Positions 32,470 to 37,956 of a DNA stretch of 64,000 nucleotides are shown one piece after another. The notes beneath the pieces are model-generated. The model did not search any database, was not told where the DNA came from, and worked only from the letters and a program-made list of their open reading frames with translations. Position numbers and translations under genes: made by a program. The DNA is from Elusimicrobiota bacterium (GTDB lineage: Bacteria; Elusimicrobiota; Elusimicrobia; Elusimicrobiales; UBA9959), in assembly GCA_019135865.1 (NCBI GenBank), contig JAGVVD010000052.1:201011-265010 (forward strand), in the 5' to 3' direction. Numbering within the stretch: the first letter of the stretch is position 1; every line of letters begins with the position of its first letter.

Positions 32470-34893
32470 ATGAAGAATGGCATGATAATTTTTTTAGCGT
32501 TAGGATTCCATTCGGTGACGGCATCTGCGGGTTGGATGGTTCAAGAACCGGATCCGGCATTTTCGGGGCTTTATGATACGGCATTGCATCTTGATGATAT
32601 TGGAAATGCGCATATTGTCTATTTGGCTGATAGCCTCCCGACATTGAGATATGTGTACTGGAATGGGAATGTTGGCACGAAGAGCGTGGTCGATACATAT
32701 AAGAACGGACTAAAGCCTACTAAAATATCGCTCGACCTTGCGGGTGATGGCAATCCGGGGGTTTCGTACCCGGGAGTGAGGTCGGGCGGGGGAAATAATC
32801 TGAAGTATGCCAAATGGACCGGAGTCTCTTGGTCTACGGAAACAGTAGATGATACAAATGGTGTCGGCCCCGTCTCGTCGTTGAAATTTGACACGATTAC
32901 TGGGTTTCCTGTTATCGCATATTCTGGCGGGGACGACGTAGGATTAAGGTGCGCTAAATGGGATGGGAGTGCGTGGGATATTCAAACGATTGAAAGTTTT
33001 ACGCTTAACGGAAGCCAACCGAGACACCCGGTATTAGTATTGGATTCAGATGGACATCCACGTATTGTATACAATGATGCCAATGGATTTCTCTTGAAAT
33101 ATGCTGAGTGGAGCGGAACCGAGTGGTCAACGCAGACAATAGCCAACGTTCTGCCACTCGATTCAGTAGCAGTGGCATTGGATGCGAATGGGGCCGCGCA
33201 CATCTCATATGCAGATGGCAGCGTAATGCCGAATCTAGTGAAGTATTCCTATTGGACTGGAGCAGCATGGCAGTCTGAAACTATAGATTTTGGTTTACAA
33301 AATTCAATAGTTGTTTCTGGGAACAGCGTGGCTGTCGCATATCGTCATGGGGTCGAGATTAAAGTGGGACGTAAATATGGCGCAGGCTGGTCAACGCATA
33401 CAGTAACCACGCAAGGGTATCGCCAGGTCTCCCTGGGTATAATTGCCCCAGATTCTTTGAGGATTTCCGCAGGGAGTAGTCCATCAGGCGGGTTGCGTTA
33501 TCATCTTCTCGACAATATTGCGCCATCCATTGCTTGGACCGGAGAGGCCGGTTATAACGCAAGCGGCGTGAGCCCGGGGTCTGGAGACTCAAGCACTGGT
33601 TTTGTGTTTAAAGTGAAATACTCCGACCCGAATGGGGATGCTCCATTGAATGGGTATCCAAAGGTGTGGATAGACAAGGGGGGTGTCGCTATTAGTGGCA
33701 GTCCTTTCATCATGACTTATCTTTCTGGCGCCTATAGCTCGGGGGCGATATACGCGCTAACAAAAACACTCTCTCCGGGGGATGATTACACCTATGGTTT
33801 TGAGTCGCAGGATTCATATGGTTCGGCTGCTAGTGGCGCCCCGACCATGTTGTTGTCTGGTCCTCTGGTTTCAAGTTATTCCCCGGTGTTAAGTTGGAGC
33901 GGTGAAATAAACTACACAATTGATGGTCTTAATCCGGAAACCGGAAATCGTACGACAAACTATATCTTCCGCGTTAAGTATTCGGACGCGGATAATGAGG
34001 CGCCGCTCGCGGGATACCCGAGGGTGCGTATCTTCAGGAGCGGCGCCGAGATCGCCGGCAGCCCATTCCCTATGAATTATGTTTCCGGCGCCAGCCTTGC
34101 CGGAGCTGTATATAGTTATGCCGCCACGCTGGTGCCTGGCGGCTATACCTATTATTTCGAGGCCAAGGACGCCAGCGGCGTGGACGCGGGCGGGACGCCA
34201 ACTGATGAATCATCCGGCCCGACGGTCGGTAATCAGGCCCCAGCACTTGCCTGGACCGGTGAGGCGAACTACGCTTCGGACGGCGTATATCCCAAAGCCG
34301 GCAACGCGTCCACGAATTACGTGTTCCGGGCAAAATATTCGGATCCGGATAACGACGCGCCGGGGGCGGGTTTTCCGCGAGTGCATATAAAACGCGGCGG
34401 CGCGGAGATCGCCGGGAGCCCGTTCGCCATGAGCTATGCTTCCGGGGCGAATGATACCGGCGCTATATACACGCTTACGAAGAACCTTGCCGCCGGGGAT
34501 TACAGTTATTCCTTCGAGGCACTGGACCTTTACTCCGGCGCCGCGACCGGAGCGCCGACCGTCGAGAGGTCCGGGCTTGTGGTGATCGGCGACGCCGCCG
34601 CGCCTCCGGCGCAGGAGGTCAAGGTTTATCACGGGGTGTTCAAGCCGGGGCAAAGCGAGAGGGCCAGCGTGGCGTTCAACACCCCGGCGGCCGTCGCGAT
34701 CACCGTCACCGCTTATAACAGCCTGGGAGGAAAAGTTAAGGAGCTTTACCGCGGCACTTCTTCCCCTGGTTTGAATTCGGTCCAATGGGACGGCCGCGAC
34801 GAAAGCGGCCAGCGCGTCTCCAGCGGCGTCTACACCATCAAGATCGAAGGCGGCGGCATAAACCAAAGCAAACGCGTGGTGGTGGTGAGGTAA
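32470..34893 (+). CDS. large secreted protein: beta-propeller-like repeats, three Ig-like repeats, FlgD/sorting-like C-terminus
   Basis: 807 residues with a signal peptide (about 1-20). Residues about 25-320 are repeats of the type LKYAKWTGVSWSTETV / LKYAEWSGTEWSTQTI, a propeller-like pattern of about 55 residues. From about 350 to 700 there are three copies of an Ig-like domain (AWTGEANYASDGVYP...KYSDPDNDAP...SGSPF-type). The C-terminus (about 720-807: VKVYHGVFKPGQSE...VQWDGRDESGQRVSSGVYTIKIEG...KRVVVVR) matches FlgD-Ig/type A sorting-like domains. The 5' half is A+T-rich (25 of 60 G+C at 33061-33120) but the 3' end is host-like (36 of 60 at 34741-34800), so the gene looks chimaeric. It lies 6 nt before the caspase fusion gene. 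Confidence 0.75.
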   Translation: MKNGMIIFLALGFHSVTASAGWMVQEPDPAFSGLYDTALHLDDIGNAHIVYLADSLPTLRYVYWNGNVGTKSVVDTYKNGLKPTKISLDLAGDGNPGVSYPGVRSGGGNNLKYAKWTGVSWSTETVDDTNGVGPVSSLKFDTITGFPVIAYSGGDDVGLRCAKWDGSAWDIQTIESFTLNGSQPRHPVLVLDSDGHPRIVYNDANGFLLKYAEWSGTEWSTQTIANVLPLDSVAVALDANGAAHISYADGSVMPNLVKYSYWTGAAWQSETIDFGLQNSIVVSGNSVAVAYRHGVEIKVGRKYGAGWSTHTVTTQGYRQVSLGIIAPDSLRISAGSSPSGGLRYHLLDNIAPSIAWTGEAGYNASGVSPGSGDSSTGFVFKVKYSDPNGDAPLNGYPKVWIDKGGVAISGSPFIMTYLSGAYSSGAIYALTKTLSPGDDYTYGFESQDSYGSAASGAPTMLLSGPLVSSYSPVLSWSGEINYTIDGLNPETGNRTTNYIFRVKYSDADNEAPLAGYPRVRIFRSGAEIAGSPFPMNYVSGASLAGAVYSYAATLVPGGYTYYFEAKDASGVDAGGTPTDESSGPTVGNQAPALAWTGEANYASDGVYPKAGNASTNYVFRAKYSDPDNDAPGAGFPRVHIKRGGAEIAGSPFAMSYASGANDTGAIYTLTKNLAAGDYSYSFEALDLYSGAATGAPTVERSGLVVIGDAAAPPAQEVKVYHGVFKPGQSERASVAFNTPAAVAITVTAYNSLGGKVKELYRGTSSPGLNSVQWDGRDESGQRVSSGVYTIKIEGGGINQSKRVVVVR

Positions 34894-34899
34894 AGGCGG

Positions 34900-37800
34900 A
34901 TGAAACGTGAGTTCGCATTGTCCGCGCTCGCCTTCGCCCTGGCGCATACGGTCCATGCCGCCGGGCAGCCGACGGCGCTGTTCCTGCTGGACGCGCAGCC
35001 CAATGTCCGCGCCTATTCGATGGGAGGGGCTTTCTCCTCGCTGGCGCGGGCCGACGCCGCCTACGATCCCTGGGGGCTCGGCTACGCCGTCAGCCCTTCC
35101 GTCTCGCTGGCTCATTGGCCCGGCTCCGTGCTGGACAGCAATTATAATTTCGTCTCGCTCGTCGCCCCGCACGACAAACTGGGGGCCTTCAGTCTCTCCT
35201 ATCTGAGCTACACCACCGGTTCCGAGACCATCGAGGAGTTGGACGGCACCGCGCGCAGCATAACGCTTGAGGACAATAAGCTCATCTCGCTGGGCTACGG
35301 CCGCGGCCTTACCCGGAACCTTTTCGCCGGCGCGGCCGTTAAGAGCCTGACCAGCGCGCTGGCCGACGATTACAAGGCCAGCGCCATGCTGCTGGACCTC
35401 GGCCTGGTATACCGCACTTTGGACGACAGGCACAGTCTCGGCGCGGCTATGACTAATCTCGGCGGCGGTCTTAAATATTATGAGACGGAGGAGCCGCTCC
35501 CGACCGAGGTGAAGTTCGGCTATACCCGCGAAACCCGTCCCTGGGCCGGGCAGAAGGTGGTCTGGGGCCTGGGCTATTCCCGGTCCGAGGTCTCAAGCGG
35601 CTACTCCCTGGGCGCGGAGTACTTCCCCGGCATTCCCTTCGTTTCGCTGCGCGCCGGCGTCAACAGGGGCGGCGAGCGGACAAGGCTTATGGCCGGGCTG
35701 GGGCTCAATTACAGCGCTTTCGACCTGGACTTCGGCTACGACCTTTCCGCGGATAATGTCGAGGAGGACCGGAGCCCGCTGCGCTTCGCCCTCACCTGGA
35801 CCTTCGGCGAGCGCGGGGCCTACTTCGCCGGGGAAAAATATATGGCCCGCGGCATGAAAGAGAGGGGCGTGGCGGTATGGGAGGGGATCGGGCCGGGGGA
35901 GCCGGACCATGCCCGGGCGCGGGAGGCCATCCGGCAGTACGCGAACCCGCCGCGGCTGCTGGCCGGCGCGGTCCTGGAGGACGCCAATGGCGACGGCGTG
36001 CTGTCGCCGGGAGAGGCGGGAAGTCTTGTGGTGACGCTGACCAACGGCGGGCGAGGCCGCGCTCTGCTGCCGCGCGTGACGGTGGAGCCGGCGGACCGGG
36101 GCGTGGCGATGCGAAATATAGAAACGGGGCTTTACGACGGCCTTGTGCAGGAACTGGAGCCCGGGCGGAGCGCTTCTTTCAGGGTGCCGGTCAAGGCGCT
36201 GGAAGAGTCCGAACGGACCGGCGTCGCTTTCAATGTGAGCGTCAAAGAAGCCCGGGGTTTCAACCCCGAGCCGGTCTTGTTCACGCTGCCGCTTAAAGGC
36301 TTTTCGCCTCCGCGGCTCGCCCTGGCGCGCTATACTTTCCGCGAGGATAATACGGGCAATTCCTCCGGCAACGGCAACGGGATAATAGAGAAGGGCGAGC
36401 AGGTGGAGCTGACCGGCTACCTGGTGAACGCCGGCCTTACCGAGGCGCGCGGGGTTAAATTCGAGGCCGTCTCCGGCGATCCGCGCCTGGCGCTTATCGG
36501 TCAGCCTTCCGCCGACATCGGTACGCTGAAGCCCGGAGAACACCGGAAGGTCCTGCTGGCCTTCCGGGTGGCGGCGGATTATTCCGGCCCGGCGCAACTG
36601 CCGCTGGTCTTCAGGATGACAGAAGCCCGGCCGCGCTTTTCAAGGGAGCAGCCGGCGCGCCTGGCGCTGGGCGGCTTCTACAAGGACCCTGTCGAACCGG
36701 TCTTCGGCGATCTCGACGCCTCGGCGGCGCTGGCTTCGGTGCCTGCGCTGGCCGGTCCCATTTCCGACTCGCGCGCGGCCGAGGTGGTGACGCTTATCGC
36801 CGGCGCGCCGCCCGTCCTGGAGTTCGACGTGACCCGCCTGCCGGACGACAACGGCAACGGCGTCTATGAGCCGGGCGAGACGCTGCGCTTCAAGGTGGGC
36901 ATACGCAACACAGGCGGCAAGACGGCGCGTGGGGTAGTGGTGGCGCTGGACGGCGATAGCATGGTGAAGACCCTGCTGGAGGACCGCCGCGTGGGGGATA
37001 TAGCGCCCGGCAGATACCAGCCGGTGCTGCTGGAGGCGCGCATTCCCGAGACCGTGCCGCGTAAAGAGGCGTCGTTCAGGATCAGAGTGACGGAAAGCAG
37101 CGGCTTCGGCGCCAGCAAGATAGAGGAGGCCCGCGCGGCCTTCCAGGCGAAAGAGGTCAAAGTCGTCAGGCAGCTCGCCAGCCTCATGCCCGTGCCCGGG
37201 ACGCGGCCCGGCTGGCGCGGCCGTTCAGGCGCTATCGTGGTGGGGATCGGGGCCTATGGCCCGGCGGTCGGCGCGCTGAAATACGCCGCGCGCGACGCCG
37301 AGCTGGCCGCTAAATATTTCAGCGGCGCGCTGGGCGTCCCCGAGGGCAACATAAAGGTCGTTCTCGACGGTAAAGCCACCAAGTCCCGCATAGAGGCGGA
37401 AGTCGCCAGTATGGCCGACAAGGGGCTGGACTTCGTCGCCCTGTATTACTCCGGCCACGGCGTGCCGGACCCGGACAACCCGCGCACCGGCGACCCCTAC
37501 ATCGTGCCGGTGGACGCGGACCTGGAACTGGGCGGCCGCATGCTGATACGGCTCAACGAGATCGTCACCGCGCTCGAGCGCGGGACAAAGGACGTCGTGG
37601 TGCTGCTGGACGCCTGCTTTTCCGGCAATATCGAGAGCGCGCCCAGGGTTTATGCATCGGCGCAGAAGGGCCTGGGTATAGCGCCGCGCTTCGCGCAGGA
37701 GAAAGCCGTGGTGATGACCGGCTCCAGCGCCGCGCAGCCCAGCCTGGAATACGACAGGGCCGGGCACGGCTATTTCAGCTATTATTTCATGCTCGGTCTT

Positions 37801-37956
37801 AAGGGCGAGGCTGACAAGGATAATGACGGCGTCGTGACCGAATCGGAACTTTGCCGATACACCGCCGCCGCCATGGCCGCCGACGAGAGCCTCAACGGGC
37901 GCCAGACCCCGCAGTGTTCCAACGCCGGCGACAGAGTGCTCGGCCGGTACAGGTAA
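34900..37956 (+). CDS. PorV-like outer-membrane barrel fused to Ig-like domains and a caspase-family peptidase
   Basis: 1018 residues. Signal peptide about 1-20. The barrel-type region runs from about 25 to 310, opening ALFLLDAQPNVRAYSMGGAFSSLARADAAYDPWGLGY as in PorV/UPF0164 proteins and closing PLRFALTWTFG. About 345-760 are three CARDB/Ig-like domains, each opening with a Ca-binding-like loop (DANGDGVLSPGE, NGNGIIEKGE, DDNGNGVYEPGE). About 775-1018 is a C14 caspase-like domain with AIVVGIGAYG, AARDAELAAKYF, YYSGHG (H853) and LLDACFSG (C906), so the catalytic dyad is intact; a DKDNDGVVTESE loop is near the end. Probably co-transcribed with the sorting-tail protein upstream. The fusion is unusual. 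Confidence 0.82.
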   Translation: MKREFALSALAFALAHTVHAAGQPTALFLLDAQPNVRAYSMGGAFSSLARADAAYDPWGLGYAVSPSVSLAHWPGSVLDSNYNFVSLVAPHDKLGAFSLSYLSYTTGSETIEELDGTARSITLEDNKLISLGYGRGLTRNLFAGAAVKSLTSALADDYKASAMLLDLGLVYRTLDDRHSLGAAMTNLGGGLKYYETEEPLPTEVKFGYTRETRPWAGQKVVWGLGYSRSEVSSGYSLGAEYFPGIPFVSLRAGVNRGGERTRLMAGLGLNYSAFDLDFGYDLSADNVEEDRSPLRFALTWTFGERGAYFAGEKYMARGMKERGVAVWEGIGPGEPDHARAREAIRQYANPPRLLAGAVLEDANGDGVLSPGEAGSLVVTLTNGGRGRALLPRVTVEPADRGVAMRNIETGLYDGLVQELEPGRSASFRVPVKALEESERTGVAFNVSVKEARGFNPEPVLFTLPLKGFSPPRLALARYTFREDNTGNSSGNGNGIIEKGEQVELTGYLVNAGLTEARGVKFEAVSGDPRLALIGQPSADIGTLKPGEHRKVLLAFRVAADYSGPAQLPLVFRMTEARPRFSREQPARLALGGFYKDPVEPVFGDLDASAALASVPALAGPISDSRAAEVVTLIAGAPPVLEFDVTRLPDDNGNGVYEPGETLRFKVGIRNTGGKTARGVVVALDGDSMVKTLLEDRRVGDIAPGRYQPVLLEARIPETVPRKEASFRIRVTESSGFGASKIEEARAAFQAKEVKVVRQLASLMPVPGTRPGWRGRSGAIVVGIGAYGPAVGALKYAARDAELAAKYFSGALGVPEGNIKVVLDGKATKSRIEAEVASMADKGLDFVALYYSGHGVPDPDNPRTGDPYIVPVDADLELGGRMLIRLNEIVTALERGTKDVVVLLDACFSGNIESAPRVYASAQKGLGIAPRFAQEKAVVMTGSSAAQPSLEYDRAGHGYFSYYFMLGLKGEADKDNDGVVTESELCRYTAAAMAADESLNGRQTPQCSNAGDRVLGRYR

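Follow-up and report, generated by a model that had tools for sequence, protein, structure and literature searches.

A PorV-type barrel fused to a caspase-like domain behind a tailed secreted protein in an Elusimicrobiota bacterium: a candidate cargo-dedicated export shuttle

What might a caspase-like peptidase do at the end of an outer-membrane barrel? The question is raised by an open reading frame (ORF) in a 64,000-nucleotide stretch of contig JAGVVD010000052.1, hereafter the window, from an uncultured bacterium of the phylum Elusimicrobiota. The frame joins a barrel related to PorV, which shuttles cargo in the type IX secretion system (T9SS) of Bacteroidota, to three immunoglobulin (Ig)-like domains and a caspase domain, and it lies just behind the gene for a tailed secreted protein, its presumed cargo. 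That this domain architecture and this gene pair are real is nearly certain. The fusion very probably serves as the cognate shuttle in an SprA-based export system. With somewhat better than even confidence, we favor a fuller reading, in which it is a cargo-dedicated, non-recycled shuttle or anchor that carries a periplasmic metacaspase-like peptidase of type-IX-like export.

Domain architecture of the fusion

The following features were assigned to the fusion and to the gene upstream of it.

32470..34893, + strand: secreted cargo, 807 aa (ORF), with propeller-like N-terminal repeats (by eye), Ig-like repeats and a type-A-like C-terminal tail
34621..34890, + strand: cargo C-terminal tail, 90 aa, a seven-strand Ig-like sandwich (A3 profile, E 1.4e-29 in the genome; model)
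34894..34899, + strand: 6-nt gap from cargo stop to fusion ATG, within a purine-rich stretch
34900..37956, + strand: PorV-Ig3-caspase fusion, 1018 aa, ATG start, single unbroken frame
34900..35097, + strand: signal peptide and conserved N-terminal segment, probably a barrel plug by analogy with FadL and PorV (model, alignment; 73-75% identity among fusions)
35098..35802, + strand: 14-strand PorV-type barrel, residues 67-301 (NF033709, AlphaFold2 model, Foldseek)
35812..35940, + strand: helical TPR-like linker, residues 305-347 (model; TPR present in related barrels)
35941..37143, + strand: three Ig-like domains, residues about 348-465, 466-590 and 640-748, each with an NGxG...GE loop (domain searches, model)
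37222..37953, + strand: C14 caspase/metacaspase-like domain, residues 775-1018 (PF00656, metacaspase-1 profile match)
37456..37458, + strand: catalytic His853, kept in every alignment row that covers it
37609..37617, + strand: Asp904, predicted S1 pocket for a basic P1 residue (by analogy), and catalytic Cys906 (conservation)
37813..37848, + strand: EF-hand-like calcium loop inside the caspase domain, residues 972-983 (sequence; PF00036 below cut-off)

The PorV/PorQ family model NF033709 spans residues 25-302 of the fusion (E 2e-25) and scores 90.1 bits against a cut-off of 90. This score, together with a PorV fold match, places the barrel in the PorV/PorQ family; the PorV equivalog model NF033710 gives 34.1 bits, far under its 250-bit cut-off. 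An AlphaFold2 model, built on 27 aligned sequences taken from the window and from related loci, has a mean predicted local distance difference test (pLDDT) score of 83 and a predicted template modeling (pTM) score of 0.48, values at which the domains are reliable and their relative placement is not. It contains, in order, 14 barrel strands (67-301), helices (307-347), three Ig-like domains and a caspase fold. The best Foldseek match of the barrel is PorV of the T9SS translocon (8gl6_F and 6h3i_F, target TM 0.64 and 0.67), and that of the caspase domain is MALT1. Integrins, which topped the Foldseek list of the fusion, were rejected as multi-Ig artifacts, with a TM of about 0.1.

The caspase model PF00656 spans residues 778-1008 (E 6.5e-15, 55.9 bits, cut-off 21.4). 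A search of the PDB with the fusion as a single sequence returned no match; a profile was needed, and that of the caspase domain matched metacaspase-1 (7qp0, E 9e-10). The His-Cys dyad of the C14 caspase/metacaspase family is present (H853, C906), and no fusion in which the caspase domain can be read departs from H853, D904 or C906. D904 lies two residues ahead of the catalytic Cys, at what we take to be the position that confers a basic P1 preference on metacaspases. The loops in the three Ig domains read NGDGVLSPGE, NGNGIIEKGE and NGNGVYEPGE; the EF-hand-like loop in the caspase domain is canonical (DKDNDGVVTESE, residues 972-983; PF00036 E 4.7e-4, below cut-off), from which a role for calcium may presumably be suspected. 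The initial annotation, made from the sequence alone, had described a barrel, three Ig-like domains with calcium-type loops and an intact caspase; family models, structure model and Foldseek bear this out.

The fusion in other genomes

A search of 295 sampled Elusimicrobiota genomes found orthologous fusions in five other genomes, all from the window's family: G212 (70% identity), G221, G243, G220 and G281, the last lacking the barrel. A chimeric ORF could thereby be ruled out. A gene for a tailed protein lies close to the fusion in four of them, upstream in G212, G221 and G243 and downstream in G220, and a small ORF6N-like gene (by eye) stands between the two in G221 and G243. Counting the window, fusion and conserved-tail cargo occur together in five genomes, in one of them with a broken caspase frame. 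Across genera and over 85 aa, the four tails are 68-76% identical to that of the window, and the bodies of the cargo relatives vary in length (614-1165 aa in four genomes). An unfused barrel in G037 (42% identity) adjoins a cargo whose body is unrelated and whose tail is 44% identical. The tail is thus kept while cargo bodies differ, and it is therefore the tail, not the body, that travels with the barrel. In G281, a transposase-like gene adjoins the barrel-less remnant.

Ig-caspase proteins without a barrel also occur; they look secreted and carry TIG or DUF6273 domains (L076:5906-8548, L077:3084-5654, L078:7334-10426). A gene for a DUF4384-type lipoprotein adjoins some caspase genes, including the G220 fusion.

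Cargo tails and barrels as probable cognate pairs

The FlgD_ig model matches the cargo tail above its cut-off (E 4e-11). TIGR04183 scores 20.2 bits on it, slightly below the cut-off of 23, and 31.4 bits on the G221 orthologue of the cargo. The earlier description of a secreted protein with a FlgD- or type A-like tail ending 6 nt before the fusion therefore holds, and the 6-nt spacing within a purine-rich stretch suggests coupled translation of the two genes. Seven strands are predicted for the tail (pLDDT 90.6), the number described for type A tails (PMC12618676). Searched against the PDB, the tail profile found FlgD first and the C-termini of PorZ and PorU next; with Foldseek, the best match of the tail model was PorZ, amid generic Ig folds.

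Further evidence linking tail and barrel came from the rest of the genome. Searched with a profile built from 13 tails, the genome yielded 22 (E below 1e-8), which excludes the outcome, no other tailed proteins, that the initial annotation had named as a refutation of its type IX reading. The 25 matches to the PorV models reduce to about 21 genes, L022 being FadL-like, L025 and L026 partial, and L021 and L023 one ORF. Seventeen of the roughly 21 immediately follow a tailed gene and one immediately precedes one, where random placement among roughly 2,700 genes (an estimate) would give about 0.2 such neighbors. Barrel relatives checked in other genomes behave likewise, all six adjoining a tailed gene. 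Across 13 pairs, tails that are further apart tend to go with barrels that are further apart (r 0.36, a value reached in 63 of 20,000 permutations); with one clade of three pairs removed, r is 0.32, and 505 of 20,000 permutations are as high.

Five of the cargo-barrel pairs in the genome (L004, L005, L007, L008 and L011) are near-identical and probably arose by recent duplication.

Translocon and sortase

The initial annotation had placed the fusion in a type IX context and proposed looking for SprA. The genome encodes an SprA/Sov homolog of 1794 aa on contig 43, which matches TIGR04189 with E 1.2e-34 and stays under the equivalog cut-off (118.9 vs 200 bits). Used as a single sequence, it found no match in the PDB; a profile was needed, and one made from 15 SprA-like proteins of the phylum had SprA as its sole PDB match (E 7.6e-32), with collinear blocks. 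An SprA/Sov-like translocon, one feature by which a type IX system is recognized, is thus present, and with the tails and the barrel-tail pairs it sustains the proposed context. Across the phylum, 250 of 290 genomes have an SprA homolog, and 148 of 199 have tails.

The C25 (PorU-type) peptidase was found neither in this genome nor, with one exception, in the 290 genomes of the phylum, in a search for which control genomes were silent. The single match, in G006, is weakly PorU-like and shows that the search can detect C25 in the phylum. We do not class the system as a complete T9SS; it works like the translocon-shuttle-tail part of one.

The SprA gene of this genome (L070:7646-13027, C43) adjoins two LptF/LptG-like permease genes (by eye), and no other type IX gene was recognized nearby. 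One family of small genomes, f2, keeps the SprA homolog with usually only 0-2 tails detected, where it may serve other cargo or the profile may miss tails.

Topology of the caspase

In a barrel assembled by BAM, an even number of strands leaves both termini in the periplasm. In the fusion model, the seven would-be extracellular gaps between strands total 59 residues and the six would-be periplasmic turns 25. Several sister barrels in the genome end in other domains, namely TPR (L014, L024) or CsgG/LpoB-like domains (L041 by Pfam; L015, L019 and L043 by eye). The short periplasmic turns and these C-termini favor a periplasmic C-terminus, and the caspase, which the model places behind the last strand of a barrel with an even number of strands, is likely to be periplasmic. 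PorV of the known system receives the cargo tail on its extracellular loops (PMC10994853). Caspase and docked tail would therefore be on opposite sides of the membrane.

Barrels with CsgG/LpoB-like domains (L015, L019, L041, L043) would have a periplasmic partner fused to the shuttle, a parallel to the caspase case.

A proposed mechanism

Type A cargo shares one common PorV, which is thought to be recycled, and type B cargo has a cognate SprF/PorP that is encoded directly downstream and seems to stay with the cargo (PMC12618676). Gene order at this locus follows the type B pattern, and the missing C25 peptidase fits a cargo that is not released from its barrel by cleavage. From the domains, the pairing, the SprA homolog and the tails, we infer the following course of events. 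The upstream cargo would enter the periplasm via Sec and exit through the SprA-like translocon, and its tail would bind the extracellular loops of the barrel encoded directly behind it. The cargo would then probably remain docked on the barrel as a surface anchor, like type B cargo on SprF/PorP, rather than being cleaved; we consider this reasonably probable because no PorU-type peptidase is seen and because most cargo has a barrel of its own. The helices, the three Ig domains and the caspase would hang in the periplasm as a tethered, possibly calcium-dependent, metacaspase-like peptidase that, by analogy, probably cuts after Arg or Lys. Its likeliest role would be periplasmic proteolysis beneath the docking site, perhaps tied to docking of the cargo; candidate substrates are cargo that has gone astray, proteins of the envelope and targets that docking would release. 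Actual coupling of caspase activity to cargo docking is a tentative idea, on the doubtful side. An extended version, also unlikely, would make the fusion a receptor-protease in which barrel-bound surface cargo controls a calcium-dependent periplasmic caspase and so passes a signal inward across the outer membrane; the export system around it would be a reduced one, related to type IX secretion but without a sortase, in which most cargo has a shuttle-anchor of its own.

Several observations weigh against the favored reading. The other PorV-type barrels of the genome all lack a caspase, and the fusion itself occurs sporadically, in 6 of the roughly 45 family genomes sampled; in one of its orthologs (G243, L073:4594-7667) the caspase frame is broken, through decay or assembly error. 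The cargo tail also resembles FlgD and generic Ig domains. As for the motor, no GldM turned up in this genome, and GldL gave one weak match in 285 genomes of the phylum, in searches for which control genomes were silent too. The silence of the controls leaves room for a diverged motor or sortase.

Alternative explanations

The initial annotation had proposed a single-chain PorV-PorU, in which the caspase, acting on the cell surface, would remove the cargo tail and might also attach the cargo, in place of the C25 sortase. While the missing PorU-type peptidase, the membership of both peptidases in clan CD and the tight pairing of cargo and fusion genes are consistent with this proposal, PorU works on the cell surface, and the caspase, placed after the last strand of an even-stranded barrel, should be periplasmic. 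The annotation itself had named a periplasmic caspase out of reach of the cargo as the outcome that would count against it, and the even-stranded barrel largely bears that outcome out. Moreover, the fusion itself bears no secretion tail, the other cargo-barrel pairs, about 17 in number, lack a peptidase, and none of the standalone relatives of the fusion caspase is encoded near tails or PorV genes. Since only one pair in the genome has a peptidase, the fused caspase cannot be a general sortase, and we regard the single-chain proposal as very unlikely. A periplasmic caspase beside a cargo-specific barrel, with its catalytic residues conserved, could instead degrade cargo that fails to leave via SprA. 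This quality-control function would be a special case of the mechanism proposed above and is itself improbable, given that other pairs manage without a caspase.

Two further explanations leave the barrel with a different function, and each has a slim chance of being right. An order of N-terminal barrel, Ig-like domains and terminal effector domain is also that of intimin, and the barrel might export its own Ig domains and caspase as type Ve autotransporters do. It is, however, a 14-stranded PorV/FadL-like barrel rather than a 12-stranded type Ve one, its conserved N-terminal segment likely plugs it, and sister barrels bear periplasmic-type domains at the same place. Alternatively, the barrel could be a FadL-like transporter of small molecules beside a gene whose FlgD-like tail is unrelated to type IX export. 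FlgD is indeed the top sequence match of the tail profile, and FadL is a structural match to the barrel (2r8a, target TM 0.49), although a weaker one than PorV. This explanation is also hard to square with an SprA homolog that is nearly universal in the phylum, with the 18 of about 21 barrel genes beside a tailed gene and with the co-divergence of tail and barrel.

Relation to known systems

The fusion barrel shares with PorV (LptO) the 14-strand fold and the reach of NF033709. The fusion differs in its low equivalog score and in the added Ig domains and caspase; moreover, type A cargo in Bacteroidota all relies on a single PorV (PMC12618676), whereas here about 21 barrels are mostly paired with cargo. 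In having a shuttle gene directly downstream of the cargo, dedicated pairs and a likely anchor role, it resembles SprF/PorP, but its barrel is nearer to PorV and the cargo tails are type-A-like, with seven strands. PorU and the fusion caspase are both clan CD cysteine peptidases with a type IX setting. The fusion peptidase is of the PF00656/C14 type rather than C25, lacks a tail of its own, is predicted to be periplasmic and is linked to a single cargo. Also close are the bacterial metacaspase-like C14 peptidases (orthocaspases), including the Elusimicrobiota Ig-caspases, which share the His-Cys dyad, the Asp two residues before the Cys and, in some genomes, DUF4384 neighbors; the fusion differs in being joined to an outer-membrane shuttle barrel.

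Surveys have confined type IX genes to Bacteroidota (PMC4793230) or to the FCB phyla (PMC11285876), and tails have been reported in Poribacteria, where the export route is not known (PMC3909097). Searches of the open-access literature found neither a type IX system in Elusimicrobiota nor a PorV-caspase fusion described. The occurrence across Elusimicrobiota of the SprA homolog, of tails and of cognate PorV-type barrels suggests an older or more widespread translocon-shuttle-tail system without a detectable sortase. The fusion links a caspase-type peptidase to the docking barrel of one cargo, and this defined gene pair allows both the function of a shuttle after export and the envelope role of bacterial caspases to be tested.

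Giant tailed frames

A tail in the same genome (C54:24853-25149, - strand; L100/L014) terminates an open frame of 16,223 aa directly upstream of a PorV-TPR gene. Comparable giant tailed frames occur in G028 (17,613 aa), G078 (7,312 aa) and G111 (6,233 aa).
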